Virus record (IMG/VR): IMGVR_UViG_3300023176_006361
Coordinates: 1 to 64,000 of that record
DNA from: a virus
Direction: 5' to 3' (one strand)
Length of the DNA stretch: 64,000 bases
Part shown: positions 5,551 through 51,800 of the stretch, piece by piece
How the letters are laid out: each line of letters opens with the position of its first letter
How positions within the stretch are numbered: the first letter of the stretch is position 1
Translations under genes and position numbers: made by a program
The notes under the pieces: model-generated
Told to the model about the DNA's origin: nothing
The model's input: only the letters and a program-made list of their open reading frames with translations
Database searches by the model: none

Positions 5551-6369
5551 TTAGAATGAATTGAATGTAATAGAGGTGCTGAATCCAAAGTCTTCATCAT
5601 CAAGTGAAGTCAATAATGAAGTATCGTCTGCATCTACATCAGTATCACTATCTTGGTCAGTTGTTGCCTTAGGTGTGACAGTATAAGTAACTTCTCTCCT
5701 TGCAGTAGTTGTATTTGTATCTGAATACATATTTGTAATAGCAGACTTGATAACTCCAGAATCTGCAACTGGACCAAACAGATAAGTTTTAGCAGTGAAT
5801 TGAAGAGTCCAGATAATTACTTGTCTCTTGTCAAAGTTACCTTCATACTCATCTCTATAGTCAATACTGTTCAATACGATAGGAATATCTCTTTTCTCAT
5901 CAGTTTCCTTGATCATCTTTACAGTGATACTAAAAGATGGTTGAAAGAACGGGAGAATTTGTTCTACGATTTGAAGACCATCATCCTGGTTCTTTACATA
6001 TATTGCCAATTCAAAATTGACATTATATGGAACAGGCATAAATTGTTTAGTAATCTTATTAGCATCACCGTCTTTGGGAGTAATGATAGTCTTGAGAGGT
6101 GCTAACTTTCTTGTAGGATCATATTGCATACCAAGAATTTCAAATGACATTCTAGGCAGCACAATCTGAACATCCTTGCCTTGAAGATCAGGTTGCTGTT
6201 GAATCCTTGCTAAAAACTTTTGAGTTGGTCCATATGATAATGGAACTTTGGAAACTTCTACAACATTTCCTGAAGCATCAAATCTATTGATTTCAAGATT
6301 GTTGAAAAGCGTACCAAAACCAACTACAGTTTTCCTAAGTACTTCGTTGTAAAAATAGTCTCCAAACAT
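5551..6369 (-). CDS. 15: Tail completion / sheath stabiliser (gp15-like)
   Basis: Caps the contractile tail and joins it to the neck. The 272-aa length equals that of T4 gp15 as I remember it. The start MFGDYFYNEVLRK and the central block QIVEQILPFFQPSFSITVKM at about 150-175 closely match the T4 protein (MFGYFYN..., QIVEQILPYFQP). An acidic Asp-rich stretch is near the C-terminus (DQDSDTDVDADDTS). The ATG overlaps the stop of gp14 (TAATG), and small terminase gp16 follows after five bases, the T4 order. Confidence 0.95.
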   Translation of the reverse strand: MFGDYFYNEVLRKTVVGFGTLFNNLEINRFDASGNVVEVSKVPLSYGPTQKFLARIQQQPDLQGKDVQIVLPRMSFEILGMQYDPTRKLAPLKTIITPKDGDANKITKQFMPVPYNVNFELAIYVKNQDDGLQIVEQILPFFQPSFSITVKMIKETDEKRDIPIVLNSIDYRDEYEGNFDKRQVIIWTLQFTAKTYLFGPVADSGVIKSAITNMYSDTNTTTARREVTYTVTPKATTDQDSDTDVDADDTSLLTSLDDEDFGFSTSITFNSF

Positions 6370-7277
6370 TAGAATTCACCAAATGGATTTTTCTCAGTAA
6401 AGTCAAGTATGCTATCAGCATAAGATTCAATACTCCTATTATATGTATTATCTTCCGTACTATCAGTTATATACTGAGTCTCAATTTGCTGAGAACCTGA
6501 GATAGTAGATTGCTTCATTGTCCAAGTAGCATTAGAAGTTTGTCCAGTAATGACTTCTCCTTCCAAGAAATTCTTACTCTTATCAAATACTACAAGAATA
6601 TAGTTTGTACCATCCCAAGATACTGTTGTTGCTGTAGCACCACTTGTAGCGCCTACAACCTGCTCTTCAGCCTGGAATGTACCACTATGGGCAGCAGTGT
6701 CATCAAAGACAATACTTGTCTTGACAGATCTTTCAAGTTCAATATCGTCGATCTCATCAACTCCAGTATTGAGATCTTCACCAGAGTATTCAAAGAGTTC
6801 ACATCTAAGATCATATGTATAGAACTGACCAAGTTGATAGAAGTCTGCTTGGTGCTCTACATATTTGATTTCAAATAATCCTTTAGTAAGTGGGAAGAAA
6901 ATAAGATCTCCTTCTGCAGGACGATCATCTGCTAACTTACCCGCAAAGTTTCCATCAAACTCTTGTTGCCACCTACGCTTTGATACTGCAAATGTAAGAG
7001 CATCGTTATTCTTCAGTCCGAAGCGAGTCAGGGTATCGTCCTGAACACCATCGAACTTATCATAACTCTTTAGATACATTTCGATTTCTACAGACGCATC
7101 GAAGGATGAGATAGTGTCTTCATGAAAAAGACTATCTATCTTGTTCAATGTTCTTGGCAGATAATAAACAGTGCTACCATGGATCTTGATCTGTTCGTCG
7201 ATCAAGTCCTGAGCGAGAGTTTGTTCTGCTGTTGTCCCACCATAGGCAGGAAAATATGAACTCTTTTGACTTGCCAT
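6369..7277 (-). CDS. 14: Neck protein (gp14-like)
   Basis: Forms part of the neck between head portal and tail. The 302-aa protein has the gp14 N-terminal signature LAQDLIDEQIKIHGSTVYYL followed by PRTLNKIDSLFHED, and a second conserved block around RFGLKNNDALTFAVSKRRW. Residues 190-260 add a Thr/Gly-rich insertion (GTFQAEEQVVGATSGATATT) that looks like a small beta-sandwich; such variable inserts are common in cyanophage versions. It sits between gp13 and gp15, as in T4. Confidence 0.93.
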   Translation of the reverse strand: MASQKSSYFPAYGGTTAEQTLAQDLIDEQIKIHGSTVYYLPRTLNKIDSLFHEDTISSFDASVEIEMYLKSYDKFDGVQDDTLTRFGLKNNDALTFAVSKRRWQQEFDGNFAGKLADDRPAEGDLIFFPLTKGLFEIKYVEHQADFYQLGQFYTYDLRCELFEYSGEDLNTGVDEIDDIELERSVKTSIVFDDTAAHSGTFQAEEQVVGATSGATATTVSWDGTNYILVVFDKSKNFLEGEVITGQTSNATWTMKQSTISGSQQIETQYITDSTEDNTYNRSIESYADSILDFTEKNPFGEF

Positions 7278-8159: not shown

Positions 8160-11100
8160 TCATGCCTGAGATTCAGACCAGGAGACTCTAGCAGAAGCAA
8201 TAGTGTATCTTCTAGAAGTACTCTCGTAAGTATCGTCAGGGATAACGACAACAGTCAGAGTGTCAGGTCCGTTGGGGAAGGTATAATCTCCACCAAGGAT
8301 TGAGTTACCCAGAGTTGCAATTTCACCCAGTTCTTGAACTGTAGTATCGTTTGCATTTGCTCTGAACTCAAACAATGTAATTCCGTTAGAAACACGGTCA
8401 ATTAGTTTCGCGAATTCAGCATCTGTTGCGTGTGAGTGGAAGACTACCTGGGACAGTGCAGGAGAACCAACACCAGACCAGTTAGGTTGTGAAAGGTCAC
8501 CATTCAGAACCAGTCTAATTGTACAAGATTTTCTAGGATCCTGAGATTGCTGGTTGACTGATGCACCAACTGAGGTTCCACCGTCAGAGACGGTAATTGA
8601 GACTTGCTTCAACTGAAGTTGCATTCTGTTGATCAGATCTCTAGTACCAAGGTTACCAGTTACACCAGCATCAACTGATGGTGCAAGTCTAATCGACAGC
8701 ATTGGATATTCTCTGTTTGCCTGATCCTCGTCACCGTCTGACTTTTGGTTCAGCAGATATGTAGTATCCGATGATGCGGAGAACAAGTATGCCTTGTCAT
8801 CCTCGAACTGACCATCCATAATAACAGATGCACCCCAGTGGAACAGTGATGGAGAGAATCTAGCACCAGCAACTCTGTCACCAAGATTCGCTACCTCATA
8901 ACGTGCTGGCAGGTTACCAGATCTGAAGTATGCTTCAGTAAACTTGTTACTGTGTACATACTGGTGAGCGTAGAAGACCTTACCAAACTGATCCTTGAAT
9001 CCGTAGCGGATCTTACCACCACCATACCAGGAGTAGTCAATGTAGCACATCTGAAGTTTCTTCAGATCCATTTCAAATCCTGTTTGACCAGTACCATCAC
9101 ATCTGTCAATATTGAATTGGGATTGTGGGGTCTTAGTATCAACAGTCTTAGTCATAATGACATTTGATGATGATACGCCTTCATATGCCTTGGTCAGATA
9201 CAGTCTTGAATCTGAAACAACGAATGCGATTCTGTAAGATTGACCACGGATAACAACATAATCATCAGGAGCAAGTTGCTTAGTGAAGATTGTGTTTTGA
9301 CCATTTACGATCTGAGAACCCTTGGTGACAGTTATTTCACCAGCAGTTTGTTGAGTAGAAGATCTTCTAACTGCATAGAGATTCTGACCATCATACTCAA
9401 AGAAGAATCCATTTTGGTCATCAAACATACCAGCGCGAACAACTGAATTGATCCAACCGTTCTTATTGAGTGTTGGGAAACCAGATGGTGTTACATCTGA
9501 TGGAGATCCTGCAAGACTGTAGGTGAACGTAAAATCAGTCAGAACTGTAGCAACAGTTCCATTTTCAGTGTTGAAATAGTTAGTTCCAGTCGAAACAGAT
9601 GTGTCTCTCATAGAGATAGAGTCACCAGCTTCAAGGAAGTGTGGTCTTCTAGTTCTTACAGTTGCAATTGGGTCACCATTTCCATCAGTACCAGCAACAA
9701 TTGAACTTACTTCAATTGGTGGATTGAAGTTGGTTGCAGTTGAATACTGCAGACCTTTACCTGACTGATAACGGAAGTATCTTCTGGTTTGTCTGACAAT
9801 TGAAGAATCAGCAGATGCACCTGGGTTGATCTCAACACCACCATCAAATGGTCTATGTAGAGCATATGAAGTTGGTTTTACATACAGTGCTGTAGGCAGC
9901 AGATATGGTTCATTATTATAGTTTTCGGTAGCAATTGTGATCGAGTGCTCACTACCCTGACCAGTGGATGTAATATTGACTGGATTTGTAGAGTAAGCAG
10001 CTTGGCGATAAGAGTATGAGTTAGTACCGTTACCAGCTAACTTGAAGTAACCATTGCCCAAATTGATCAAGAAGTAGTTGCCATCTTTAGACAAACCAGC
10101 AATCGTTGAGTTATCTTCAGCATGTGAATAGATAACGCGAGTACCAGTCAACATTTGATCTGAGATATCATTACCATCTTCATCAAGGATGCCCAAGAAA
10201 TTTCCATTGGAATCAGATTTTCCAAAGAAGAAAATATCAGTGGATGGATCACAAATAGTAAGTGGAGTAGTCTCCTGTGGATCAAAAGATATAACAATAG
10301 GAGTTTGTGGTTCAAGTACTGTCATCTCATCCTCATCTGAGATTGAGGTGATAGTCGTAGGAACAACTCTGGATTCAATTCTATAGAATCTATGCTTATT
10401 ATAATATGTTGCGTTACCAGTTGAGTTTGCAAGCGTAATTGGGTTGATACCCTGTCTTGCTTCTTCTGGTGAATTGTGAAGAGTAAATTGATAATAGTTC
10501 AGTGGATTGATATGGTACATATTACCATCAACAAGACCACCATAATCAGTACTATTTGTGGCTGGGTCTACACCAGCTTCCAGTGCTTGCCACTTACCTT
10601 CATTTCTGTAGTGAACTGCATCAGCAATTTCAAAACCATGGCGGCTGCTACCAGGAACAGTAACGGTTGTACCACTAACGTTATTATAGCTGTAATAACC
10701 ATAACCATAGTTATAACCAATATAACGTTCGTCATCAATCAGAATTTCTTCACCTGGAGTATATTGGTTGATCATGTTAGTCTCAAGACCACCACCAGTC
10801 GTTACTGACTCGGTGTAGTCATTCAGACGCTTCCACCATGAATCGCGAACACTATTAGGAGGTGTTCTGCCAATATTATTATCATTTGAATAGTTATATC
10901 TCAAGTCATCATAGTTACCCTGTGAGTCTTGAGTTGCAACATAGTAATAGTCGATATTACCATGTGTATGTTGTACAACGTCCCCAGCAAAATATTCAGA
11001 AGTAGAGTTCCACTTACCTCTATCAACCGTACCTTTCAGCAGGTTGGTTGCAATTCTAATAAGGTGAAGTGATCCTGTACCTGGACCAAATAATCTTACC

Positions 11101-14100
11101 TGATTTCTTCTTCTGAATGCATCACCTCTATCTCTGTGGAATGAGATAATAGTGTTGCTCCATCTATGAATATAGTATCTCTCGCCAAATTCAAGACCAA
11201 CAATTGGAGTTGAACCTGAGTAACCATTATATTCAACGAAGTCACCAGAGTTGAATTCGTGAGAACCGATAGTAACATAGTTACTATAAGTATTTACGTT
11301 TGAGTTGGAAGAACCATCCCAAATTTTATCTTTGGTGGTATATGTCAGGAGACCATTACCAGTTTGCTCACCAAATACACTATTTGCATACAGAGTATGC
11401 TGAATATTATCGGTGGTTGTATTACCATAGTTATAGTATTCATCAATGTATATTCCTGATTGTGCATCAGCAAGAGTCAATGAAAGACCAAACCAGTTCT
11501 TAGAAATTCTATGAACGTAATATGCTGTATTATTTGACAGATAAGTGTACTGTGGTTGAGTTACAGGATCAGGAAGTCCATCTTGACCAATCTCAGTACC
11601 ACCAGCTGGAACTGTATAGAGAACAGTTGTACCCGTCTTCAAACCATGATCAGGAATATAGAATCTTCCCAGTTTCAGGTCAACAGTTTCTTGTGGATAG
11701 AATGAAAGTGTCTTACCAAAAATTTGAGTTGGTGCTTGCATTCCATAAGAAAGACCATTCGCATCTCTAGATGTAATCTTGAATGAACCATCAATTGTAC
11801 CTCTAGAAGAAGTATCTTCAAAATAATGGTTTGGTGTAGATGTCGCAGAACCACCTGACATGTTCAATGTCAAACCATTATATGTTGTTGATAACTGGAA
11901 TCTATCTGTAGTAGCATTCTTTACATAGTAAGTAGATCCATTTTGAAGACCACCGATAACTGGGTTACCATTTGAGTTATATCTAATCGAAGATCCTTCA
12001 GTGAAACCATGACTAGGAATATATAATGTATCCTCATAAGGGTTATCAATGTTTTCTCCTCTGAACTTATGACGGAAGTTTGTTCCATCACCACTAAAGG
12101 TAGTAATATTAATAATATTTGAAGTAGCGTTTTGTTGATTGACTTGGTTAGTGCTGCCAGGTTGACTATTGGATGTTGAAGACGATGCCAGTGTTACTCT
12201 GAAGTGATTATTAGTAACAGGAATCATCCAATACCAATAGTTAGCAGTCATACCACCAACAGCGCCACCAGTGGAGTTCTGAGCATCGAAACGATACTTC
12301 AACCAGTAGTTTGGCTCACCATCTTCATTGAAATCAAAACCGTGTTGAGGCGAGAACCAAGTGTTTGAAGTTGAAAGTTCTTCAATTTTCAGGACGAAGC
12401 AGTTTTCAACGTTTGCCCATCCTGTGATATCAACCAGAGGACCATTTGGAGTTCTGGATACTGAGAATTCAAAGTTGTTTGTAGAAACACCAGTGTTGAT
12501 AGAAGGGAATCTGACATAGTAGATTCTATCCTTCATATTCTGATCCCAGTTGTTATTGGTCTCAGTAATACCACCAGGAACTCCACTCTGAGAGAAGAAT
12601 ACTACCTTGTCTCCTTCTACAAAGTTTACAGTTGAGTGCTCACAAATAATTCTGTTTCTAGTTGCATATGAAGTACTTGTTTGTGCTCCACCCGATGCAG
12701 TGTTGTTTACTCCTTGAGCAAGTTTGATTGCAGGCCACAGAGAATATGGAGTACCCCAAGTATAAAGGTTTCCTTGAGATGTAATGTTCAACTGACCACC
12801 AACACCAGGACCATAGTATGGACCAGTATGTCCAGGATCTCTAGATGAGAATGAAGTTGTCAGACGAATAGTATCAGCATCAACATACTTGACATAGTAG
12901 CAATAACCATTAGACATACCACCTGGAGTGCCATTAGGCGAAGGTCCAGAAACAAAGACTACTGGTTGACCATCTTTGAATTCGTGACGAGGAATCTTGA
13001 TGGTATCTGCTGAAACATCAATAGACTCTGGGAAGAAATATCTTTGCTTTCTACCATATCCAGCAACTAATGGATCGCCAACTTCAACAATATCATATTC
13101 ATATGGATTGAGAAGCGTTGAAGAATAACCTCTACCAAACAGCGTCATCTCCAACTGAGTAGCAGCTTGGTTTGCATCAGTCAGGGTAAATGAAACTGGA
13201 TTACTTCCTGCACAGTTTGATGCACTACTTGCAAGTTGATAATTTTCATCATCAATTCTAATTACATAGTAAATACCGTTACCTGGGTTTGTTGATCTAG
13301 CGTCAGTACCAGTTTGACCTGCTGCCGTAAATCCAGTAACGTTACCATTTCTATATCTCAAGAACATCATGTCGCCTGTTACCAGACCATGATTTGCTAC
13401 TGCACCATTTACATAGTGTGTGATGGTATTAGTACTTGAATTCATGTAGCCTGCATTTGCTACCAGGAACTGCTCAGTATCATTACCACCTGGCTCCCAC
13501 AGCGTCATTGCTGTAGTTTCATATTGGTTGATATCTTCTGACCAGTCAACTGCACCACCTGAAGTGAATGCTCTACCATCAAACTCCTTTCTTCTTACAG
13601 CAATAGAGTTTGTAATGTAGAATTCTGTACCAATTGCAAAGTTGGTTTCTACTGGAGTTGTGATTGTCAGGGTACTTTGTGCTGCCTGATCAGTCGTAAC
13701 AGCAGAGTAATTACCAAGATTTAGTTTTGATCCAACATAGAATCTACCAATAATAACGTTGGTGTAAACTGTAAAGAGATCTCCAGAAGATTGGATTGGT
13801 CTAGATGCTTCATAGATGAAAGTTTTATCATCTGGAATTGACTTGATGATAAATGTTCCTTCTGCTGAAATATCTTTCAGACCTCTGATGTCAAGGGGAA
13901 TGCCGTTGACAAGACCGTGAAGTGATTTGGTTGTAACAGTAACTTCTGTTGATCCTGCTGTCGCTGTTACTGATGAAATATCTTCCAGAGGGACATCTCC
14001 TGAGGAAGAATAGAAAGATGGAATTTGATGAATTCTCTCAAGAGTTTCCCACTTAGTTGACTGAAGACCATATTCAAAGTCAGTATCAATCAGAGTATTT

Positions 14101-14432
14101 GGGTTAGAAACTCTGAGCTTACTAACTGGATCGACAAAAGTCTCAGTAGGTTTGAACTCTGCTCCCTCTTCATCAATAAAGATCTGAAGTTTGTCAGTAT
14201 CTGCATGAGCTGCAGTTACCGTATCAAAGTTCAGAGTATAAGTAGTTTGATCTGAATCAATGCTATACGCCGTACTAGTAATCCTTAGGTCAGGATCACC
14301 TAATGCGTAGATTGTTGTGCCGCGTGTAGCATTATTGATAAACAGTAACTTCTTCAGATCAACATGACCATTGATAGTTACTGTTTGCGCCGAAGCGTCA
14401 AATACGTAATCGTAAAGTAATTTTTTTGCCAT
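8160..14432 (-). CDS. Giant repetitive tail/fibre structural protein (2090 aa)
   Basis: A large virion protein of a type common in T4-like cyanophages; the exact role is unknown. It opens with MAKKLLYDYVFDASAQTVTI. The body is built of many loosely repeated beta modules in which a segment about a 'get past the region' edge (HGF/HGL/EF...G) precedes G-x-x-YYV-x-x, for example GNGIYYVIRIDDENYQLASS, GYCYYVKYVDADTIRLTTSF and GSTYYVKNATTDRFQLSTTY. At least ten such units occur from about residue 150 to 1450. The C-terminal 500 residues are different and nonrepetitive (KSDGDEDQANREYPMLSIRL), possibly an attachment or oligomerisation domain. There is no enzyme motif. A strong terminator follows the stop. 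Confidence 0.9.
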   Translation of the reverse strand: MAKKLLYDYVFDASAQTVTINGHVDLKKLLFINNATRGTTIYALGDPDLRITSTAYSIDSDQTTYTLNFDTVTAAHADTDKLQIFIDEEGAEFKPTETFVDPVSKLRVSNPNTLIDTDFEYGLQSTKWETLERIHQIPSFYSSSGDVPLEDISSVTATAGSTEVTVTTKSLHGLVNGIPLDIRGLKDISAEGTFIIKSIPDDKTFIYEASRPIQSSGDLFTVYTNVIIGRFYVGSKLNLGNYSAVTTDQAAQSTLTITTPVETNFAIGTEFYITNSIAVRRKEFDGRAFTSGGAVDWSEDINQYETTAMTLWEPGGNDTEQFLVANAGYMNSSTNTITHYVNGAVANHGLVTGDMMFLRYRNGNVTGFTAAGQTGTDARSTNPGNGIYYVIRIDDENYQLASSASNCAGSNPVSFTLTDANQAATQLEMTLFGRGYSSTLLNPYEYDIVEVGDPLVAGYGRKQRYFFPESIDVSADTIKIPRHEFKDGQPVVFVSGPSPNGTPGGMSNGYCYYVKYVDADTIRLTTSFSSRDPGHTGPYYGPGVGGQLNITSQGNLYTWGTPYSLWPAIKLAQGVNNTASGGAQTSTSYATRNRIICEHSTVNFVEGDKVVFFSQSGVPGGITETNNNWDQNMKDRIYYVRFPSINTGVSTNNFEFSVSRTPNGPLVDITGWANVENCFVLKIEELSTSNTWFSPQHGFDFNEDGEPNYWLKYRFDAQNSTGGAVGGMTANYWYWMIPVTNNHFRVTLASSSTSNSQPGSTNQVNQQNATSNIINITTFSGDGTNFRHKFRGENIDNPYEDTLYIPSHGFTEGSSIRYNSNGNPVIGGLQNGSTYYVKNATTDRFQLSTTYNGLTLNMSGGSATSTPNHYFEDTSSRGTIDGSFKITSRDANGLSYGMQAPTQIFGKTLSFYPQETVDLKLGRFYIPDHGLKTGTTVLYTVPAGGTEIGQDGLPDPVTQPQYTYLSNNTAYYVHRISKNWFGLSLTLADAQSGIYIDEYYNYGNTTTDNIQHTLYANSVFGEQTGNGLLTYTTKDKIWDGSSNSNVNTYSNYVTIGSHEFNSGDFVEYNGYSGSTPIVGLEFGERYYIHRWSNTIISFHRDRGDAFRRRNQVRLFGPGTGSLHLIRIATNLLKGTVDRGKWNSTSEYFAGDVVQHTHGNIDYYYVATQDSQGNYDDLRYNYSNDNNIGRTPPNSVRDSWWKRLNDYTESVTTGGGLETNMINQYTPGEEILIDDERYIGYNYGYGYYSYNNVSGTTVTVPGSSRHGFEIADAVHYRNEGKWQALEAGVDPATNSTDYGGLVDGNMYHINPLNYYQFTLHNSPEEARQGINPITLANSTGNATYYNKHRFYRIESRVVPTTITSISDEDEMTVLEPQTPIVISFDPQETTPLTICDPSTDIFFFGKSDSNGNFLGILDEDGNDISDQMLTGTRVIYSHAEDNSTIAGLSKDGNYFLINLGNGYFKLAGNGTNSYSYRQAAYSTNPVNITSTGQGSEHSITIATENYNNEPYLLPTALYVKPTSYALHRPFDGGVEINPGASADSSIVRQTRRYFRYQSGKGLQYSTATNFNPPIEVSSIVAGTDGNGDPIATVRTRRPHFLEAGDSISMRDTSVSTGTNYFNTENGTVATVLTDFTFTYSLAGSPSDVTPSGFPTLNKNGWINSVVRAGMFDDQNGFFFEYDGQNLYAVRRSSTQQTAGEITVTKGSQIVNGQNTIFTKQLAPDDYVVIRGQSYRIAFVVSDSRLYLTKAYEGVSSSNVIMTKTVDTKTPQSQFNIDRCDGTGQTGFEMDLKKLQMCYIDYSWYGGGKIRYGFKDQFGKVFYAHQYVHSNKFTEAYFRSGNLPARYEVANLGDRVAGARFSPSLFHWGASVIMDGQFEDDKAYLFSASSDTTYLLNQKSDGDEDQANREYPMLSIRLAPSVDAGVTGNLGTRDLINRMQLQLKQVSITVSDGGTSVGASVNQQSQDPRKSCTIRLVLNGDLSQPNWSGVGSPALSQVVFHSHATDAEFAKLIDRVSNGITLFEFRANANDTTVQELGEIATLGNSILGGDYTFPNGPDTLTVVVIPDDTYESTSRRYTIASARVSWSESQA

Positions 14433-14484: not shown

Positions 14485-15378
14485 TTAGATACCAAAGGTA
14501 ATTGCATATCCAAGTGCTTTGACTGAAAGTGCTTGGAGTTGATCTTGAGTAACCAATGATGCTGAATTAGTACCTTCAGTGAAAAGTTCCCAATTAGACG
14601 AAGAAGTCAAGGGATCATTGTTGGTTGATTCTAAGATATTTATATAAGTACTAGGTGCGCGGAAAGCAACATCACCTGGATAATAGGTGGTTCCCGCACT
14701 CCAAACACCTTTCCAAGAGAATCCTTCAAGTACCAGATCCCAGGAAGTTTGACCTGGCTGGTTTGGTGCTACGCCAACAGTCGTTGTTTTTGCAGTGTAT
14801 GCATATCCACCAAACTGGACTACGTTACCAGGAGCGTATGTAACCAATGGATCATACGTTCCAATAACAGAGAAACCAGTTGTCAAAATGTCCCAAAAAT
14901 CATTGGGGGCATTCAAATACTGGTTTGGTTGTCTATTGTTATTTGCCTGCTTTGCAATGTAAGTATATCCACCAAAAGAAACAATGTCTCCTGGTTGATA
15001 TGCTGATAAGTTATTCCAACTATCTTCAAATTGGAAACCACCAACATACTCTGAGAAGTTTGCCGCAGCAAATGCGGAAGTAGAAGAGTGTGCAGTAGTT
15101 ACTAAGTAAAGAGTGTTTCCAAATTTTACTACGTCATTGAGACGATAGAAAGTATTCTGTGCCCATTCACCAACGTTGCGTACACCCTCAAGATGAAGCG
15201 CCCAATTAGATAAATCGTTGGAATACCAATCAGTAGCTGCTGCAGTTGACGTATGGTTTGTAGTACAAACGTAACTGTTTGCACCAAACTTGACGATATC
15301 GTCGATGACATATGCAGTGCCACCAACCCAATCACCTTTCCACTTGAATTTTAATCTGCCAAGTCTAAAATCTGCCAT
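14485..15378 (-). CDS. Five-repeat carbohydrate-binding-like fibre protein
   Basis: The 297-aa protein consists of five tandem units of about 50 residues. Each has a W-x-G-x-W/Y start, a G-x-x-Y-x-x-x-D-x-V-x-F-G core and an aromatic end, for example KWKGDWVGGTAYVIDDIVKF, GEWAQNTFYRLNDVVKFGN, DSWNNLSAYQPGDIVSFGG, GTYDPLVTYAPGNVVQFGG and KGVWSAGTTYYPGDVAFRA. This pattern resembles the chitin/cellulose-binding CBM5/12 fold (W-x-x-x-x-x-Y-x-x-G-D-x-V). A short C-terminal helix (QDQLQALSVKALGYAITFG) could trimerise it. Likely part of a fibre that contacts cell-surface glycans; the true ligand is unknown. Starts five bases after the preceding gene. Confidence 0.85.
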   Translation of the reverse strand: MADFRLGRLKFKWKGDWVGGTAYVIDDIVKFGANSYVCTTNHTSTAAATDWYSNDLSNWALHLEGVRNVGEWAQNTFYRLNDVVKFGNTLYLVTTAHSSTSAFAAANFSEYVGGFQFEDSWNNLSAYQPGDIVSFGGYTYIAKQANNNRQPNQYLNAPNDFWDILTTGFSVIGTYDPLVTYAPGNVVQFGGYAYTAKTTTVGVAPNQPGQTSWDLVLEGFSWKGVWSAGTTYYPGDVAFRAPSTYINILESTNNDPLTSSSNWELFTEGTNSASLVTQDQLQALSVKALGYAITFGI

Positions 15379-15383
15379 TGTTG

Positions 15384-15758
15384 TTACTTAGGTCCGTTTG
15401 TGTTGTAATCGTAAGTTTGTCCCATACGGGCAACTAAAAATCCATCGTCATCGATGAAATAGGAAAGATTTCTAGAATCGAAACGATACTGAAAGTATGG
15501 ATCGATATCTGGATCTTGTACTACTGGATTGCCATTCGCATCAACTGTATAGTCATCAAGAGTGCGGAAAATAGGTTCTCCATTAGAGTCAAGTTTTGGT
15601 TGACTAATAAGATCAATCACATCATTATCATCGCCTGTGACTTTGGTGTATGTGAGCATACCGTCAGCATCGCGATCCATGGCATGGAAGTCCCAAGAGA
15701 CATTTCCGCCTCCGCCTCCACCTCCTCTTGCTGTAATGTCTGCTAGATTGATTGCCAT
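15384..15758 (-). CDS. Acidic 124-aa fibre-associated protein
   Basis: Unrecognised. It has a seven-glycine run near residue 12, then a polar acidic body. DRDADGMLTY (27-36) and DANGNPVVQDPDID resemble calcium-binding DxDxDG loops, but the position-12 Glu of a true EF-hand is absent. It is framed by two fibre genes with gaps of 1 and 5 bases, so it is probably a small virion component or linker. Confidence 0.7.
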   Translation of the reverse strand: MAINLADITARGGGGGGGNVSWDFHAMDRDADGMLTYTKVTGDDNDVIDLISQPKLDSNGEPIFRTLDDYTVDANGNPVVQDPDIDPYFQYRFDSRNLSYFIDDDGFLVARMGQTYDYNTNGPK

Positions 15759-15759
15759 T

Positions 15760-16704
15760 TTATGTTACAATTTTCCAGTTGGTTCCATTATATACTAATA
15801 AAACTTCCCAACCATCTGAATCTAAAATTAGCTGTGAATCTTGAGTATTCAAATAGTCAAGGAAATCCGCGCCAGTGGCACTAGAGTCAATAGTAATATT
15901 ATTTATACTCCATTGATTTGTTACATCAACAAATCTAATAAAATCTCCTACGGAAGGTGTTGCTGTCATGTCAATTTGATAGACACCTGCCGTGCTGTCT
16001 AACATATAATTTGAATTATATGTATTTGTAGTTCCGTCAATAGTAAATGCTCCAGTCTTTACCGCGACACCATAGTTGACATAAGATAAGACTGTTTCTT
16101 TATTTAGAAGCGGAACCCACGTAACTACACTATTTACAAGTTTTGTCAGATAGTAATCACCGTTACCATCTGCAGCAAATTGACCAACTCTTTGAGCAGT
16201 TGGGAGACTTGCTGCACCCAGATTCAATTTATCTGGAGTGATCGCTCCGTCAACAATTTTATTTTCCGTGACGGCATCATCTAAAATTTTAGATGAGTTA
16301 ATTGAGTTGTTAGCTAGTTTATCTGCCGTCACAGATAGGTTAGCTAACTTAGATGTTGTGATATTTCCGTCTAAGATTTTCGCAGCGATGATACTACCAT
16401 CACTGACTGTTCCGATGTCTAGTCGATCACCGAAGATAACAGCAAAGAATGTATCGTTCGTTGCTGGAGCTGTGGTGAACTCAATCAGATCGTTATTGAT
16501 ATTATAGTCAGTCGCAGGTTCAAGAACAGCACCGTTCAGAACTGCCATCACCTGAAACGCACCTGGATATACAGGGTCACCTGAAACTCTCAAATAGAAA
16601 TCAGTAGAAGATCCGTTGAATCCAGACCCTCCACCAAATCTATCTAACGGAAAATCAATCTTTCTTTGATTACCAGTCTTTGGTATATTACCAATATATG
16701 CCAT
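15760..16704 (-). CDS. Tail fibre protein (314 aa)
   Basis: The N-terminal third (MAYIGNIPKTGNQRKIDFPL ... FLRVSGD, VLNGAVLEPATDYNINNDLI) matches phage fibre domains that attach to a baseplate or partner fibre. Residues 105-170 form a chain of short repeats of the type IxxAKILDGNITTSKLANLS, probably a trimeric rod. The C-terminal part (AVKTGAFTIDGTTNTYNSNY ... WEVLLVYNGTNWKIV) resembles a small beta domain common at cyanophage fibre tips. It has its own upstream late-type promoter. Confidence 0.85.
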   Translation of the reverse strand: MAYIGNIPKTGNQRKIDFPLDRFGGGSGFNGSSTDFYLRVSGDPVYPGAFQVMAVLNGAVLEPATDYNINNDLIEFTTAPATNDTFFAVIFGDRLDIGTVSDGSIIAAKILDGNITTSKLANLSVTADKLANNSINSSKILDDAVTENKIVDGAITPDKLNLGAASLPTAQRVGQFAADGNGDYYLTKLVNSVVTWVPLLNKETVLSYVNYGVAVKTGAFTIDGTTNTYNSNYMLDSTAGVYQIDMTATPSVGDFIRFVDVTNQWSINNITIDSSATGADFLDYLNTQDSQLILDSDGWEVLLVYNGTNWKIVT

Positions 16705-20965: not shown

Positions 20966-21961
20966 TCAAGCGAAGTTCTTGGAAGCAGCGCCAAGCACTT
21001 CCCAAGCAGAACTTCTTCTAATCAGTGTAAATGAAAATACGTCTACAGCATTTGCTGTTCCTGTTGGTGCAGCACCACCAGACCATTTGATCGTTGCACC
21101 AACGCCTCCGATTTGCAGAGTGCTAACGATATATGGAGTTCCTCCTTGGGAAACAATGAACGAAACGTTTTGAATTTGACCGTCTACTGCAGGTAAGTTT
21201 GTAACGTTCAGAGTCATGTCTCCAGTTGCACCACTCAGATATCCAATCATTCCGCTGTTAGAATTCAGAGTTCCTGCATTTGTTGTGAGCGTGACATCTA
21301 CAACACTTTCAATTACTCTATTCAGATTGACTGAAGAAGAGAATGTATTTGCTCCACTGAAAGTATTTGTTCCTGCAAGAGCAGCGTATCCTGCAAGATC
21401 TCCAAGAGCAACTTCTGTATAGTTTGTTCCGTCGTTAGTTGCTTCCCACTTAGCAGTAGAGTTGTTGTAACGGAGAGTTCTTTCTGAGGTTACTGTACCA
21501 GCACCATCTGTTGTCTGTACTACCGAAATACCACCAACACCTGCTACCACGTTTTGACCAGTTCTCATCCTGATGATGGAGTCAGCAACATCAAGATCGG
21601 TCGTGTTGATCGCGGTGGTCGTACCCGAGACTGTAAGGTTACCAGAAACAGTCAGGTTGCCAGTGATTGTCTGACCACCAGTTAGATCAAGAAGTTCTTT
21701 CCATGCACCAGCATGTGCATAGTATGCTCTACCAGCATTACCTGCGCCAGGACCAATGCCATGAACATGTGCGAACATGCCATGATACGTTGATGGGTCT
21801 GGTAGGTCTGCAGAATCATCATAGTGAAAACGAATCTTGTTTCTTTGACTCGTTAGTTCTAGTTGATCTGTTGCTGCAACAGCACCTGTAATACCGTAAG
21901 TCGCTGTGGGTGCTCCTGTTCCAGCAAGGTCAGTAATAGTGTTGACTCTAATGGTAGACAT
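20966..21961 (-). CDS. Tail fibre protein (331 aa)
   Basis: Starts with STIRVNTITDLAGTGAPTAT, a fibre N-terminus common in marine phages, then FHYDDSADLPDPSTYHGMFA and a HVHGIGPGAGNAGRAYYAHA segment. The middle has beta-repeat text (ITGNLTVSGNLTVSGTTTAI) typical of trimeric fibre shafts, and the C-terminal domain ends FSFTLIRRSSAWEVLGA. An upstream ACTAAATA element may be a promoter. Exact position in the virion unknown. Confidence 0.87.
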   Translation of the reverse strand: MSTIRVNTITDLAGTGAPTATYGITGAVAATDQLELTSQRNKIRFHYDDSADLPDPSTYHGMFAHVHGIGPGAGNAGRAYYAHAGAWKELLDLTGGQTITGNLTVSGNLTVSGTTTAINTTDLDVADSIIRMRTGQNVVAGVGGISVVQTTDGAGTVTSERTLRYNNSTAKWEATNDGTNYTEVALGDLAGYAALAGTNTFSGANTFSSSVNLNRVIESVVDVTLTTNAGTLNSNSGMIGYLSGATGDMTLNVTNLPAVDGQIQNVSFIVSQGGTPYIVSTLQIGGVGATIKWSGGAAPTGTANAVDVFSFTLIRRSSAWEVLGAASKNFA

Positions 21962-22259: not shown

Positions 22260-22591
22260 TAGTAGATGCTCCTGTAGAAACTTCTTCTATAAGGAATATA
22301 TGTTCCTCTTGGATATAAAATACCAGTTGGTCTTCTGATGCCACGTCTAGAAACTTTTCTAGAAATTGAAGAGGTATCCTCAAAGTTTTCGTCTCTATTA
22401 TTCATCCTCTCTTGAATTACTTCCCAAGAGAAGTTTGTATTTGAATAACTATATGCAGCAGCTCGTTGTGTTGCTGTAGAATTTCCACTTGTCAGTGTTG
22501 GAATAGTAGAAACTCCCAGAGATGCGTTACCAGGGGTAGCATCTCCAGAAGTTTGAAGTGAGAGATCTGATTTGAGAGTAACAGCAGCCAT
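22259..22591 (-). CDS. 110-aa basic small protein, paralogue of its neighbour
   Basis: Begins AAVTLKSDLSLQTSGDATPG, nearly the same start as the 90-aa neighbour. The C-terminal half is very rich in Arg and Tyr (SRKVSRRGIRRPTGILYPRG, YIPYRRSFYRSIY), unlike most fibre proteins here. It starts within the stop region of the 613-aa gene. Function unknown; the aromatic-basic tail could insert into a larger virion assembly or bind DNA. Confidence 0.75.
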   Translation of the reverse strand: MAAVTLKSDLSLQTSGDATPGNASLGVSTIPTLTSGNSTATQRAAAYSYSNTNFSWEVIQERMNNRDENFEDTSSISRKVSRRGIRRPTGILYPRGTYIPYRRSFYRSIY

Positions 22592-24432
22592 CAGGTTGTT
22601 CTTGCAGCAAATACTACGTATCTTGATACCAAGTCAGTGTCTATTCCAAAGAATGGTTGGTTTGTTCTTCCAGCAGGAACAATTACTGTATAAACTTCAG
22701 ATCCACTAACTGTAATTGTATCTCCTGGATAGATTACAGTTTCTCCAGGTTCTGCGACCAACTGAATAACAACAAAATCATCTGGAAGATAATATGGACA
22801 TGGCATCATTGCAGAACAAACTGGCAAACCTTTCAGTGGTTTGTGAGAATCTGCAGCAGCACTAACAGTGAAAGTTCCACCAGCAGCACCTGAAATTGTC
22901 ATAGTATCATAGTTTGAATTTCTATAATACTGTTGAATTACGTTGTTCAAAATTCCAGCTTGATTTGCATATCCATCATTCCATTTGTGACCATCAATAT
23001 TGATTCTATATTGATCAACAATTCTATCTGAAGTGTGATAATGAGTTCTATCAATAGAATGCCTTTGATATCCAAACAGACATTCTCTTGCTCTACATGC
23101 AGAGTGAAGTTTACCTACAGATGGAGCATAAGTTTGATCTCCTACACCAAAATGTGGTTTGGATGCAGAATATGAATCATATGGTTCTTGGCAATCATTT
23201 GTTACCATCAAGAACCCTTCATTTACATTGTTCCAATAACCAAATTCTCTATCAGCTTGGGTTCCATATAACGTAACACTACCTTGGAACACATGGTCAA
23301 GATCCCAAATATTTTGCCCCCAAAGAGTCCCTTTGTTCAAAGAGAACGTTGCAAATCTTTCAATATTTCCATTAATGACTTGCTGGAATTGAAATACAGT
23401 ATAATTAGTATCTTGTGAAACAGGTGCTCTATATGTAACAATTTTTAGTGGGTAATCAGTTGGGTCAACTTCTCTAGCAAACCTGAGTTTTAGACCCATA
23501 CCATCAGAGTCTGAATCATTTCCTCCAACATAAGTTGGGAAAGATGCTGCTCTTTCAGCACTATAGTGCTGATAGACTGCCTGACCATTCGTGTCATATG
23601 TCAAATGGTTACCAAAGTTATCCATTCCTGGGTCACCAAAAAATCCACCTTGAAGACCATATCCATCCCAACCAATGTATGGAGAGTACAACTCATTGAG
23701 GTTGAAGTTTGGACCCGACTTCATTGTAATAAAAGATCCAGATGAGTGTGGGGCAGTTACTGCGAAAGAATAGTATGTAATTCCCCTTGCTTTATTTGCA
23801 TCATTTGTAACTCTACAAACTCCTGCGTATGGTTGCCCCCAGTTAACAAATGCTGAATTATGACTCAATGCAAGATCTTTGTCTGACCACCACCAGTTTG
23901 TTGCACCACCTTGAGTTGCATGAACTTTGATTGCTGGAACTGTTGCACTTCTAGTGCCAAAAGTGATGTCAGTAGCAGTTGAACCACCAATATCAGCAGC
24001 TGATAAGGTAATTGCAGCATCATTCGCATATCCTGATCCACCATTTCTGATATAGACAAGAATTACCTTTCCTTCAATACCAGAACTATGATCTGAACCA
24101 TAACGCCTTACGGTAACAGTAGCAGCAGTTCCACCACCAGGAGCAGTTAGTTGAACATCCCACTCCGCGTAATAAGTTCCATCCGAAACACCATCGGCAC
24201 TCAGATTTCTAGTTGGAGTATTTGCATTTGAGATTGGATAAATCTGTCCACCAACTTCACTCCAACCATCAGTGGGTGCGAGAAGTTTTCTCATTACTCC
24301 TGTAGTTGCAGTACCACTGTGATGACCAGCACCACCAGTACCCAAAGCAAGTTCTAGAGCATCAAGAACTTGCTCACTTGTCCATCCAGTATTGCCTGAA
24401 TTTACTAAAAATTCTGTTCTTGTTACTGCCAT
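22591..24432 (-). CDS. Putative fibre/adhesin protein (613 aa)
   Basis: No family recognised with confidence. The first 40 residues (TRTEFLVNSGNTGWTSEQVL) precede a Gly/Thr-rich linker (GTGGAGHHSGTATTGVM). A beta-rich body follows, with several Trp/Tyr-rich loops (ATNWWWSDKDLALSHNSAFV, PYIGWDGYGLQGGFFGDPG) and a region reading FGYWNNVNEGFLMVTNDCQ. The C-terminus (VIQLVAEPGETVIYPGDTIT) looks like a small beta domain. It lies inside the fibre region and is likely a structural protein that binds a ligand; no enzyme signature was found. Confidence 0.8.
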   Translation of the reverse strand: MAVTRTEFLVNSGNTGWTSEQVLDALELALGTGGAGHHSGTATTGVMRKLLAPTDGWSEVGGQIYPISNANTPTRNLSADGVSDGTYYAEWDVQLTAPGGGTAATVTVRRYGSDHSSGIEGKVILVYIRNGGSGYANDAAITLSAADIGGSTATDITFGTRSATVPAIKVHATQGGATNWWWSDKDLALSHNSAFVNWGQPYAGVCRVTNDANKARGITYYSFAVTAPHSSGSFITMKSGPNFNLNELYSPYIGWDGYGLQGGFFGDPGMDNFGNHLTYDTNGQAVYQHYSAERAASFPTYVGGNDSDSDGMGLKLRFAREVDPTDYPLKIVTYRAPVSQDTNYTVFQFQQVINGNIERFATFSLNKGTLWGQNIWDLDHVFQGSVTLYGTQADREFGYWNNVNEGFLMVTNDCQEPYDSYSASKPHFGVGDQTYAPSVGKLHSACRARECLFGYQRHSIDRTHYHTSDRIVDQYRINIDGHKWNDGYANQAGILNNVIQQYYRNSNYDTMTISGAAGGTFTVSAAADSHKPLKGLPVCSAMMPCPYYLPDDFVVIQLVAEPGETVIYPGDTITVSGSEVYTVIVPAGRTNQPFFGIDTDLVSRYVVFAARTT

Positions 24433-45899: not shown

Positions 45900-48800
45900 T
45901 TAGATGTCCAGGCGAGTTGGTCTGGTGGTTCTTAGATAATCTCCTTGTGCGTGTGCAAATGCACATGAACCAGAAAGAATGATTCTATTACCACTCCAAT
46001 CAATTTCTTCATAACCAATTGTTTCATTGCCAAATTCAACAAGACCATATACTTGAGATGCAATAGAAACCTTGACAGTGTTCGCTACATTACTTATAGG
46101 AGTTCCAGAAAGGAGATTTTGACCTGGATTCAATCTTAGAATAAATGTATCAGTGTCAATGATTCTATCAACGTATCCTTTTACAATTAGAGATCTCTCT
46201 TCATATATTTCCATATCTGGTCTCAACCAGAACGTATTACCTTCAACAATCATATAGTTGAAGCCATGAACTCCCTGAAGAGATAATGAAGTATCTCCAG
46301 GATTTGCTGCAGCAGCAAGAATGCCACCAAACTCCTTAGTAGTTGATACTGGAGTAATGTTGAATCGAATTGTTGATGATACATTATTTGGATTGTACTT
46401 AGAGTACAAGGATGAAAAGTATCTTTCTGCAACCTGTTCAATTCTCAAATCTGAGTATGCCTTGGTCAAATCAGCAATAGACATTGTTGATTCCACATTG
46501 AACTTATTTGTTTCAAGTGCTTGGAATGTTGGATATGCACGAATTCTTCCAACAGAGATAATATTTGGTTCAGCAAGAGCAGAATCTTTTGGATAAACTG
46601 GATTTGCCTGCAGATAATCATATTCGCGTGATACATCCTCATCAATACCATCTTGATGCTCATGCTCAGTCATGATAGTGACTTCTTGACCAGCTCTGGT
46701 TACAGTAGTTGTACCTTGGAGGAAACTGGAAACTGTGAACTGTTGTGCTTCAAGAACCATGACAGTCTCAAGGACTGTATCAACACTTGTCCAGAAATTA
46801 TATTGATTTCTAGTGGTTACAAGAGGATAGACACTATTGATTACCTTATACGCCCTTGTGACAACGATATCAGGAACCTGGAAATAATCACGACCCTCAT
46901 AATCAACAATACAGCGAGAAATTTGTTTGTTCTCGTCAATTTCAGCATGAGCAAGGGCAAATACACCAGTATCTGTCTCTGCTGGTTTGATTACAAGAAT
47001 TGGTGCAGTATCATAATCTAATCCAGTTGGGAATGATCCTGTGAGAGATTCAATAGAGTGGATTCTGCCATTTTCCTTAGAGGAAACAGTTACACTATTT
47101 GAACCGCCAAGATCTGTACTAACTGTTGCACCATTTGCAATTATTCTGTCTGGCAGAATTTGGAATTCAACTTGATTATTTCCAAGATCGGAAATAACAG
47201 TACCGACAGATTCTCCGCCAGAGAATACTAAAGTTCCAGCAGGATATGCTGTAGAATCAGAAAGAGTCATTGTAAACCTGACTCTCGCAGTAAATGATGC
47301 CTCACGACCTCTGGTAATTCCACTATAATCTGAGGTTTTGAATTGAGTTTGCTTGAGACCAACGATAGCTGTATCAATTCTAAACTTATGAATACCAGTA
47401 CTTGTTCCAAGAGTAATTGCTTGCTCTGGAGGAGCACTCAGAGAATCATAGTAATTAGTGTAAAGGAATACTCCTCTATCTCTAAATGAATACCCGAGAT
47501 AATATGTGTTACCACTTGTCAAACCTGGAATGTCTGCGTTACCTTCGTTAGTATAAACCAACTTTGTACCAGAAATAAATCCAGATGTCGATTGTGTCGA
47601 ATAATCTTCAAAGTAGATCTTATTTGCTTGATCAACATAGAAAAGGGAAGAACCTACATTTGAAGCATCAATAAAATAATCATTATATGTGTCAAGGTGC
47701 TCCCATTCAATAATATCCCTATTGGTAATGTCAACCAGTTCTCTTTCAGCATTCTCACCATCAACTAAAATGCTATCATCAGGTCTAAAGTATTCTCTAA
47801 TTGGATAATATGCCTTTGGAAGAGATCTGAGACGCTTATTAGTTTGTGTACCATCATCAAGTACATAGTAAACTTCATTTCCATTATCATCATACTGAAC
47901 ATAAGATGGATCGTATAGAGGAACATTATATCCCCTAAGAACTTTCTCAAGATCCTTACCATACCAATAGAATACGTGGAGTTCACTTCCCGCAAGAACT
48001 GGATTATAGAATTCCAAAAGGGACTCATTGATTACATATGATTGTCCAAATTCTTGAATAATACCATTCACAACAACAATAATTTGAGAAGAACGATTTG
48101 GAATAATCAGACTTCCATTAGCTCTCATAATAAAGGTTGTTGTTGGTGATGATGTGTCTGGAGTATCCAATACAGTATACTTACCATTTGAATACGCAAA
48201 GAACTGTTGAGATTGACCCTTTCTCTCAACATAAGACTTTCCAGGATTTCTTGATAAAGTAGAAAGATATGATGGATTACTGATAACAGATGTAATTATA
48301 CCAATTGAAGACCCAATTGCAGATTCTACATTTGCACAGGAACCAACATAACTTCCAGTAGCACCATCAATAGCAATTGTATTATCAAAATACTGCGTAA
48401 GACCATGTGAACCCTGCACAGTTACAGTTTGATTCTGCATTACTGCAATGGCAATGTCTCTTGCATGATTGAAAGTTTCAATTGATTCTGCCTCTTCACC
48501 AACAAGATGTTGGAGTGCTCCACCTGTTGCGTACAGATTTGCAGCATCCCAAGCTGGTGCATTTCCACCATAGCGAAGAACATCAACGACAGCACCGAGA
48601 ACATCAACAACATCATCAATACAATTCTGAGAACCTCCAGGAACATTGAATCCTGGATTATTTGCAAGCATTCTCTCTACCGCTTCGTTTGCGATAAAGT
48701 TCTTATTGATTTCAATCAAGTTTGAAGCATCAAGAAATCTATCAGATTGAGTAATAGTTCCAAGAAGTTTGATCGTTGATGTTGCTGAAGATGTTGTTCC

Positions 48801-51800
48801 AGTAATTGTTTCTCCAGATTGGAAATCTCTTTCCAAAACCTCTACTTTCAAAAGACCTTTGTTTTCATAACCAATAGGAGTTCTAGAAAGAATTTTGCCT
48901 CTAGCATTACTGGTTCCACCAGTAATAATTTCATTGTCAGAATAATTCAGAATATTTGAAACATCACTGATGTTGATAATCTTACCAATTCTCTTTGGAG
49001 GAGAAGTAAATATAATTTCATTCGTAGTATCATTTATTGTATATGAAGAACCAGGAATTTGAATTACGCCATCAAGAAATACTAAAGCAGTTTCATTTGG
49101 TTCTAATGGATCACTTGGAGCATAATTTGGTTGTTGTGCAGTATATTGTAAATTGAACGTTGTCTGATAGTTATCAAATTGATCAGAAATGTCAATATAC
49201 TTCTTCGCGTAATCTCTATTGTTGGCAACATCCGAGAATCCAAACATTCTACCAACAAACTTTGCAGTTTGGGTATGTCCATTGACTGGATCAACAAATT
49301 CTTTTGGTGGTTGTGCAAAAATAATTTTTTGCTGCAACTCCGTCTTAGAAAGTTGATTTTCTGGGTAGAATTTATGGTAAAGTTTTGTTCCAGTTACATA
49401 TGGATATGCAGCATTTTCTTCTGGTGTTCCAACACTATAATCGTAGGTAGATGACTTGATGGTTGCAAAATAGCAATATCTACCCTCTGGGAATTCTGGA
49501 GTTACACAGAATCTTCCATTATACTCATCAAGATCACCACTTCCAGCAGTATATTGGAAATCTGCAGTGAAATATCCAATCTTATAGATGATTGGTGTAG
49601 ATACAATTTGTGCCCAAGCAGTTGGAGTCTTTATCCACATGTTCTGGGAGAATGTCCCATTTACTGAAGAGAGGAGTAGTTTTCTATTGATTGGATCATA
49701 AGAATCTACAATTCCATTTACACCAGCAACAGTTGTATCATCAGTATCACTTGTAACCTGTGTACAGATTTGTGAGCTGGTAAAGATATCTGTTGAACCA
49801 GTGAATGAAACAAAATTCAGTACAATAAATTCAACAGAATCTACTGGAGGACCAACTTCATCAGATTGAAGAATTGTTCCATCGGGTAAGAAGTTTCTGG
49901 TGGCGATAGTTCTTTCAGCGTAACTTGACTCAATTTTCTTGATAGAAGACACTGAGGAATACGCATTAGAATAACCATATGGTCCATAAATTGGAGTTCC
50001 ATCAAATGCCCATCCAAGAATCTTAGAGTGTGCAGTTTGATTTTCAGTATATGCTCCAGTTGTAGAGATATTATCTCCACGCTGTCTTCTCAAACCAATT
50101 GGGTTAGCAGTGTGATAATAATTACCAGTCAAACTTGATTTGCCACCATATGAATCTGTTGCTGGTGAAGATCCCGTTTCATTGACAATCCATATATTCT
50201 TATCGTTATAACTTTCTTGTTGTTGATTATTATAAAGTAAAGTTCCGTTTGACCATAATCCAATTGCTCCAAGGGGAGTGTCTTCTTTGTCAATAGGTGC
50301 AAATGTCTCTTTTGGAATCCTTTTGATATAATCAGAGAAAACTGGATTGTTTCCAGTGTATGGTCCAAGAGTTGCTTGATATGATGGAATTCCTCTACCT
50401 TTGATGTAGATAAATTCCTCATCAATATACGTTTCTTGAACGTCTGCTTGTCCAGATACTGTGGTAGAACCATCATTGATATCTGTTGTTGTTCCAGAGA
50501 TATACCAAGAATCAAACTCTAACTGACCAGAGTTAGATGTTGCGATTTGGAGAGACTCGATCTTCTTATCATTGATAATGGTATATGCTTTCCCAGGTTC
50601 TTGAGCAACTCCATCAAGTGTAACTAAAAGGTTGTAATCACTATATGGTTGAATTGGTGACCCTTGCTCTCTAATATCATATGTCTTATTGACATTATCA
50701 AACAGAGGAGTGATGTCATCAATAATTGCTAAGTCAATGGCAACAGTTCCTTCAGCAGAAACAACAGAACCAGCTCCTGGTTTTTCAACCATTCTGAAGA
50801 ACTTATTGATGATAAGAGTTTTCAGGTTGCCATTTTCGGCAACATTTGCAGGAGTTTCTGAGTTGATGTCAATAAACTCTTTGTAGATCTCAATTGTGAT
50901 CTGTTTGTATGGGTTCTGAACATCACAGATAATCTCTGGGAAGTATGAAATGCTTGTAGGAAGCACTTTATATGCCAGTCTTTCTCTGTTATGTGCAGCA
51001 TCTGCAAATCTATCCCTAGGATGATATTCAGAGATTTGAATATACTTTCCATCAGGATCATCTTTTACTGCAATAATATGATAGATCTTGTCTTGAATAA
51101 GAACTCCAGTAATTGTCTCGTCATTAGCATTTATTGATTCCCACTGGATTTCAAAGTCACCTTCCGCATAATATCTAAATGAGTCACCTACTTCAATGTT
51201 TTGACCATTTCTAATGTAGATATATCCATCAGAATCAACTTCAGTTCTAGAATCAAAGTTGAATCTATGCTGCAGTGGAGGACATGTTGTTGAACCACCC
51301 AGAGGGACTGTAGAGACGCTAGCAGAAGAGTCTACAATAACCTCACCAAATACCAAGAATCCTGCGGGGTGAGTGGATTCTTTGATAATTTCTCTCCATT
51401 CAGATACAGGAATTTGTGATCTGATAACGTATGAGAAATCTTGATAGAAGTAAGAATCTTGGATCTTCTGAGAAGATGTGCTAAGTTTACCCAAATCATC
51501 AGAGAACAATCCACTGATCTGAGTAATTGAATTGACAATTGATGCGAGTGATGGAGTATTTACAGTTTTTGGTACAGACCTTGTGGCACTCAAATATCCA
51601 AACAAAGGTGCATCTACAACAAATTCACCAACAACAGGATTGACTCTAATTGTTTGATTGATTTCATTGTAATCGATAACAATTCCTCTAGCAGTTGGAG
51701 TGTTTACATCTCCCTGATATACTCTTTCGCCCCTTTCATATTTTGTACCAATAGTTGGTTGAAAATTTCCATTGGAATCTTTACCAACATTAATCAATTG

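Follow-up and report, generated by a model that had tools for sequence, protein, structure and literature searches.

A stand-alone array of five CBM5/12-like modules homologous to the N-terminus of T4-GC_296 long tail fibres

The array gene and its locus

The window analysed here is a stretch of 64,000 nucleotides (positions 1 to 64,000) of the IMG/VR virus record IMGVR_UViG_3300023176_006361, a linear record of 76,811 bases, most of which it covers. A minus-strand open reading frame spans positions 14485-15378 exactly and encodes a product of 297 aa; the plus strand across the same positions is rich in stops. The initial annotation had placed the gene at the right coordinates, to which the minus strand has to be added. 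The features of the gene and of its neighbours are the following.

14485..15378, minus strand: five-module CBM5/12-like tail-fibre protein (T4-GC_296 / phrog_9851, array only), 297 aa
15346..15378, minus strand: leader MADFRLGRLKF, residues 1-11, strongly conserved family-wide in the alignment
15181..15345, minus strand: module 1, residues 12-66, ChiA1-like, with NHTS and an aromatic at residue 51
15034..15180, minus strand: module 2, residues 67-115, ChiA1-like with AHSS
14872..15033, minus strand: module 3, residues 116-169
14719..14871, minus strand: module 4, residues 170-220, region of the best structural match (Z 8.0)
14569..14718, minus strand: module 5, residues 221-270
14485..14568, minus strand: C-terminal tail, residues 271-297, and stop
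15384..15758, minus strand: T4-GC_295 homologue, 124 aa, which usually adjoins the array gene, whether short or long
15760..16704, minus strand: 314-aa fibre in the T4-GC_294 slot, with a MAYIGN N-terminus unlike called long-form cassettes
8160..14432, minus strand: 2090-aa virion structural protein, the next gene in the short-form cassette

The Pfam family CBM_5_12 (PF02839) matches the 297-aa protein in five stretches with 62.9 bits in total, for a cut-off of 26.2 (E 2.7e-17), and the five modules, of 49-55 aa each, cover residues 12-270. Single modules score more weakly, a six-frame Pfam search recovering three, one of them above the cut-off. When repeat pairs were compared with 500 shuffles each, seven of the ten pairs beat every shuffle, the other three being matched by 1, 4 and 18 of the 500. 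A family repeat profile finds five domains at 62-72 bits in the array protein, for a next-best window protein at E 0.017 and a best reversed protein at E 0.024; as this profile was built with the protein's own repeats included, Pfam CBM_5_12 is the independent test. The five repeats of about 50 residues proposed earlier are thus confirmed by Pfam, repeat profile and shuffles, but they do not make up the entire protein, since the 11-residue leader and the 27-residue tail lie outside. Between 13 chosen phages, modules at the same position share 40-61% identity on average, against 25-39% for different modules within one protein, which indicates that the repeats are old and that the five positions are historically separate and are not recent copies.

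At the DNA level a single phage record comes close, that of Synechococcus phage S-BM3 (Kyanoviridae), with 82.7% identity over 67% of 16.5 kb, so that assignment of the virus to the phages of picocyanobacteria, as suggested before, is reasonable. Gene order in S-BM3 is that of the window, and its homologue SBM3_00191, labelled 'tail fiber-like protein' with the tag T4-GC_296, is likewise 297 aa long and 87.5% identical, essentially one protein with that of the window. The same open reading frame of 297-299 aa with its stop is encoded by the S-BM3 isolate and by several metagenome contigs, which rules out an assembly artefact. In both the window and S-BM3 the array gene is flanked by fibre genes at one end; at the other come the giant structural protein and, beyond it, the gp13/gp14 neck genes.

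A possible single degenerate CBM5/12-like module (GKWNSTSEYFAGDVV) was spotted by eye at about residue 1138 of the 2090-aa neighbour, with a weak score of 6.4 bits in the window and 14.4 bits in the homologue from contig L118. Two auxiliary metabolic genes on the minus strand adjoin the structural block; 662-1681 encodes a dehydrogenase related to 6-phosphogluconate dehydrogenase, and 2054-2554 a plastoquinol terminal oxidase.

Long and short members of the fibre family

The array protein matches the tail-fibre family phrog_9851, a profile of 1092 positions, at profile positions 1-280 (E 3.4e-109). Profile and alignment place the conserved leader and the array at the N-terminus of phrog_9851 / T4-GC_296, while the C-terminal fibre body is absent, the reading frame stopping after the array. 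In P-SSM2, S-CAM1, S-CAM3, S-SSM7, Sf-FS3 and the pelagiphage Mosig the gene encodes 1090-1477 aa and lies beside fibre genes. PSSM2_301 of P-SSM2 and SXBG_00229 of S-CAM1 have the same leader, the same array and an adjoining GC_295-type gene, but such fibres continue into a large C-terminal body where the window protein has its array and a 27-residue tail.

Relatives were collected from phage records and two viral-contig scans. Among 95 family proteins distinct in their first 270 residues, 86 are long, seven besides that of the window are closed short forms and two were set aside; since the second scan was limited to the 80 relatives most similar to the query, out of at least 577, the ratio of short to long does not represent the population. 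Those long forms that are closed, 67 in number, measure 1088-1970 aa. The array occurs in phages of Synechococcus, Prochlorococcus and Pelagibacter, and it is more conserved than the remainder of the protein in 103 of 105 (non-independent) pairs drawn from 15 selected long forms. In HTVC031P, an Autographiviridae pelagiphage, a 294-aa protein consists of one module, a TTQGDILY...GTSGQVL linker resembling that of many long fibres, and a different end. Set beside the long fibres, HTVC031P reveals what reads in the sequences as a modular logic of anchor, linker and head.

The motif YYV..G.D.N.G, which we take to be a hallmark of beta-helices, is found in 67 of the 86 long forms, and one BFVD relative carries the name 'Pectinesterase, catalytic'; a beta-helix body in the long relatives is thereby suggested only. 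Pfam gave a beta-helix family in none of ten long forms scanned, and the fold search of the corresponding region of the long form L047 was filled by an inserted helical module. The strict motif has no match in the window proteins; a loose version has four matches in three of them, taken as chance.

This helical module of L047, of about 150 aa (residues 451-600), resembles phycobiliproteins. In a model of part of L047 past the array (pLDDT 75.5, pTM 0.66), 25 of the 26 Foldseek matches with E up to 1e-3 are phycoerythrin, phycocyanin, phycobilisome or cryptophyte light-harvesting entries, the remaining one being named 'Bacterial fluorescent protein' (best E 7.7e-5). Structure comparison with VIA, where helical folds under about Z 13 can arise by chance, gave Z 14.1-16.2 with rmsd 2.4-5.7 Å over 130-168 residues in the 50 rows listed. 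The bilin-attachment helix of phycobiliproteins suggested the pattern C-x-[RK]-D followed by a later aromatic-D. The L047 copy lacks C-x-R-D; other long relatives have copies that carry it, and 18 copies were chosen by requiring the pattern, so that the invariance of C-x-R-D-x6-A-x2-Y-D in their alignment is partly by construction. Against all PDB sequences, the profile of these copies matched phycobiliproteins or phycobilisome subunits in 43 of 43 cases with E up to 10 (best E 0.0012, 66 positions). In profile-profile comparison with cyanobacterial phycocyanin alpha, the C-x-R-D helix alone aligned (probability 89, 28 columns; 0.1 for an unrelated control profile). The Pfam phycobilisome family matched none of seven module copies tried, and phmmer found no PDB match for the L047 copy. 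Within the family the profile matches 26 of 95 proteins and no reversed sequence; L047 is matched at 451-600 with E 2e-4, and the inserts of L052, L103 and L007 are missed. Long relatives hold many copies (for instance L017:8673-9182 and L028:9696-10205), and the window holds one, in another protein.

48357-48740, minus strand: phycobiliprotein-like module, residues 2904-3031 of the 3849-aa protein encoded at 45900-57449

That protein has this single match (E 2e-14), with a motif reading C-I-D-D. In whole-record searches 6 of 10 records match, including S-BM3 and S-CAM1, with no match at E 1e-3 in P-SSM2, S-SSM7, Mosig and the L047 record. Sequence and model together make common descent of the module and phycobiliproteins likely, though short of proof, and any bilin binding is putative; literature listings gave no sign of a phycobiliprotein-like phage module. 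In relatives L017-L029 the N-terminal array is longer, with six modules by eye in the alignment, and is followed in the distinct members by 9-10 phycobiliprotein-like modules, both module types varying in number.

The short form is known from eight distinct sequences: the window, S-BM3 and six others. A tree of 82 rows, which leaves out duplicates, L017-L029 (longer arrays) and the contig-end truncated L040 and L066, needs a single change for the short form (support 73/82), with L118 on a long branch. The surroundings of the gene change with its length. A YIG-type fibre stands upstream in 7 of 7 readable short loci (window included; L003 has no readable DNA) and in none of 27 callable long loci. 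These short-form fibres are of MAYIGN, MPYIGN or MPYLG type and measure 314-745 aa; in 23 of the 27 callable long loci the slot is taken by a protein of R[RK]GT type, about 150 aa long. The downstream giant structural gene (2087-2605 aa) is present in 4 of 4 callable short loci against 0 of 66 callable long ones; of the 86 long loci, the slot rules give no call for the upstream gene in 59 and for the downstream gene in 20. Neighbours of GC_295 size (100-170 aa) are found in 71 of the 86 long loci and in the seven readable short loci.

The fibre in the GC_294 slot is itself a mosaic, its N-terminus being common within short-form cassettes and its C-terminal 85 aa or so being common with long forms; its length varies from 314 to 745 aa, the 745-aa homologue lying upstream of L118:10001. 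The possibility that a tip domain moved from gene 296 to gene 294 was rejected, as the C-terminal domain of about 85 aa in the window protein is also present in all seven long-form 294 proteins compared.

The missing body was sought elsewhere in the window. Long-form parts past residue 280, compared by blastp with 24 window proteins, gave partial matches only and no whole fibre body: L007 matches the product of 20966-21961 (E 1.1e-10, 256 columns, 28.5% identity), the modules of longer-array relatives match the array protein, the helical module matches the 45900-57449 protein, and short matches fall on 15760-16704, 6369-7277 and 22591-24432. Probably this lineage once had a body and lost it. 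The tail after module 5 occupies the place of the linker (TTxGDLLY...RLPIGTxGQVL) of many long relatives and aligns poorly with it, which, together with the absent body, would also fit a decaying, functionless remnant of a fibre gene. Such decay is very improbable. Eight distinct sequences, which diverge to about 45% identity, keep the gene intact and all end alike in A[LI]xxxxTFG[ILVF]. The gene is also under purifying selection: of 21 pairs, the five with array dS below 1 have dN/dS of about 0.10-0.16, the other 16 being near or past saturation. Among the literature titles and abstracts listed, none names a stand-alone array of the 14485-15378 type.

Module fold and ligand residues

The predicted model of the array protein is of modest confidence (mean pLDDT 66, pTM 0.31), and its whole-model TM-scores are low, the five modules being unplaced relative to one another. 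Within it the modules are predicted to adopt the CBM5/12 fold. Residues 172-219 superimpose on 1wvv_B with Z 8.0 and 1.1 Å over 46 residues, 2d49 and 1ed7 also match, and the best-scoring structural rows are chitinases; structural Z values up to 8 are middling for this tool and alone not decisive. The CBM5/12 resemblance seen by the initial annotation, and the fold comparison it proposed, hold up both in sequence (Pfam) and in predicted fold.

Both chitin-active proteins and phage fibres appear among the nearest solved proteins. The single 297-aa sequence reaches a best E of only 0.061 by phmmer against the PDB. A profile of the array finds chitin deacetylases best (E 3.3e-6), then residues 29-114 of the phage 7-7-1 long tail fibre (9rkv_M, E 9.7e-5) and, weakly, Milano gp124 (8fqc_P1, E 0.33). 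A single-module profile finds a dioxygenase with such a domain (4e-8), ChiA1 (2.4e-5), 7-7-1 (0.1) and Milano (0.33), and in the Foldseek list for the model a chitin deacetylase stands on top at E 2.3e-4, equal to 7-7-1. By structure, matches include Milano gp124 residues 75-118 (Z 6.8), CBA120 TSP1 (Z 3.8), an A-1(L) tail fibre chain at 134-184 (Z 7.6), contractile injection system chains (cap chain 7b5i, Z 6.3) and baseplate proteins. As judged from sequence and model, phage anchors are no closer to the modules than chitin-active proteins are, and may be less close. Since the fold is common to working binders, sequence nearness leaves function unsettled, and the argument for an anchor comes from the place of the module in virion proteins and from the missing ligand residues.

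In CBM5-type binders the exposed aromatics follow the strand tyrosine. Of 410 modules examined in 82 proteins, none has W, F or Y at +2 to +5 after that tyrosine. The counts given here for 82 proteins leave out L017-L029, L039 and L040. In the loop of ChiA1 type a Trp is present in module 1 of 45 of the 82 proteins, in module 2 of five and in modules 3-5 of none, and any aromatic in 82, 82, 18, 8 and 5 of 82 for modules 1 to 5; where module 1 lacks the Trp, the aromatic that it keeps close to the ligand position of ChiA1 is F or Y. The window protein keeps a ChiA1-like aromatic in modules 1 and 2 only. In ChiA1 itself the surface Trp (W687) binds ligand (PMC3701571). Compared with the CBM5/12 domains of ChiA1, ChiC and ChiB, the array modules therefore have the fold and the core aromatics in common but are without the CBM5-type ligand aromatics; the ChiA1-type ligand Trp is retained only partly in modules 1-2 and is missing in modules 3-5.

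These residues bear on the adhesion to chitin-like or surface polysaccharide that was first proposed for this protein, by which five modules would bind chitin-like or host glycans through avidity and provide reversible attachment. Such a role is consistent with the Pfam score well over the cut-off, with the chitin deacetylases, chitinases and chitin-binding domains among the nearest solved sequences and folds, and with the HTS/HSS loop and the aromatic near the W687 position kept in modules 1 and 2; moreover, some phage adhesion devices are described as binding host cells through CBMs, which belong to other families (PMC8540738). Against it, the CBM5-type aromatics are missing from all five modules and the loop Trp from modules 3-5 throughout the 82 proteins. 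Furthermore, phages of Synechococcus, Prochlorococcus and Pelagibacter, whose host surfaces should differ, share the array as the better conserved N-terminal part of their fibres, and it matches baseplate-anchoring domains. The account of the A-1(L) neck fibre in PMC10966104 adds that its distal carbohydrate-binding module failed to bind the host. We therefore regard a polysaccharide adhesin as unlikely. Judging by the residues kept, some weak binding may remain, as may one or two sites in modules 1-2.

The array as a fibre anchor

The phage proteins matched by the modules carry them where the fibre is attached. Residues 1-120 of the 7-7-1 long tail fibre, within which the match at 29-114 of 9rkv_M lies, anchor the fibre to the baseplate core (PMC12796354). 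The N-terminal module of Milano gp124 is tail-binding, with two domains like the N-termini of CBA120 TSP1 and TSP3 (PMC10811340), and the matched residues 75-118 lie inside it. A 2014 article recognised the ChiA1 chitin-binding fold in domain D2 of CBA120 TSP1 and remarked that there had never been a report of such head domains binding polysaccharide (PMC3966878). If chain a is gp33, the A-1(L) match at 134-184 would fall in the joint domain that binds the wedge (PMC10966104). In 7-7-1, Milano and CBA120 a small CBM5/12-like domain or domains stand, as here, at the fibre N-terminus, which in those phages attaches the fibre to the baseplate or to partner spikes; these proteins have one or two such domains fused to a spike body, whereas the window protein has five and no body.

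We therefore favour, with a probability of about 0.7, a virion-proximal anchor or stalk of tail fibres, in which the five CBM5/12-fold modules serve as building blocks and not as sugar sites, and which has been kept as a separate adaptor. The array would form a stalk on or near the baseplate, probably as a trimer. In the long forms it would carry its own large fibre body; in the short-form lineage, where the body is absent, it would be retained as an adaptor beside GC_295 and the separate fibre of 15760-16704. Fibres encoded by separate genes, which may dock on the array, would then take over receptor contact, and the 15760-16704 product could carry it.

The neighbourhood also allows for a different place in the virion. 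A part of another appendage, such as a neck whisker or a tail-surface fibre, would suit a gene that in the window and S-BM3 is followed on one side by the giant structural protein and the gp13/gp14 neck genes, and the fold does match the injection system cap chain 7b5i (Z 6.3). This assignment is improbable, given that the long relatives are syntenic with tail-fibre genes and that the profile match is to a baseplate-anchored fibre.

A more specific form of the baseplate anchor is that the detached array is a free-standing socket, the five modules together with GC_295 making a universal baseplate adaptor on which exchangeable fibres (314-745 aa, encoded two genes upstream) would dock. We consider this possible but tentative, at somewhat less than even odds. 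If it is true, host range would change by swapping a small neighbouring gene and not a giant fused fibre.

For annotation, the array advises caution: CBM_5_12 matches in phages should not be equated with sugar-binding adhesins, as in fibre N-termini the fold appears to be a structural anchor. To our knowledge, fibre attachment and exchange in T4-like cyanophages are poorly understood. If the array is indeed a detached anchor, S-BM3-like phages would offer a small, tractable adaptor with which fibre attachment and exchange could be tested.
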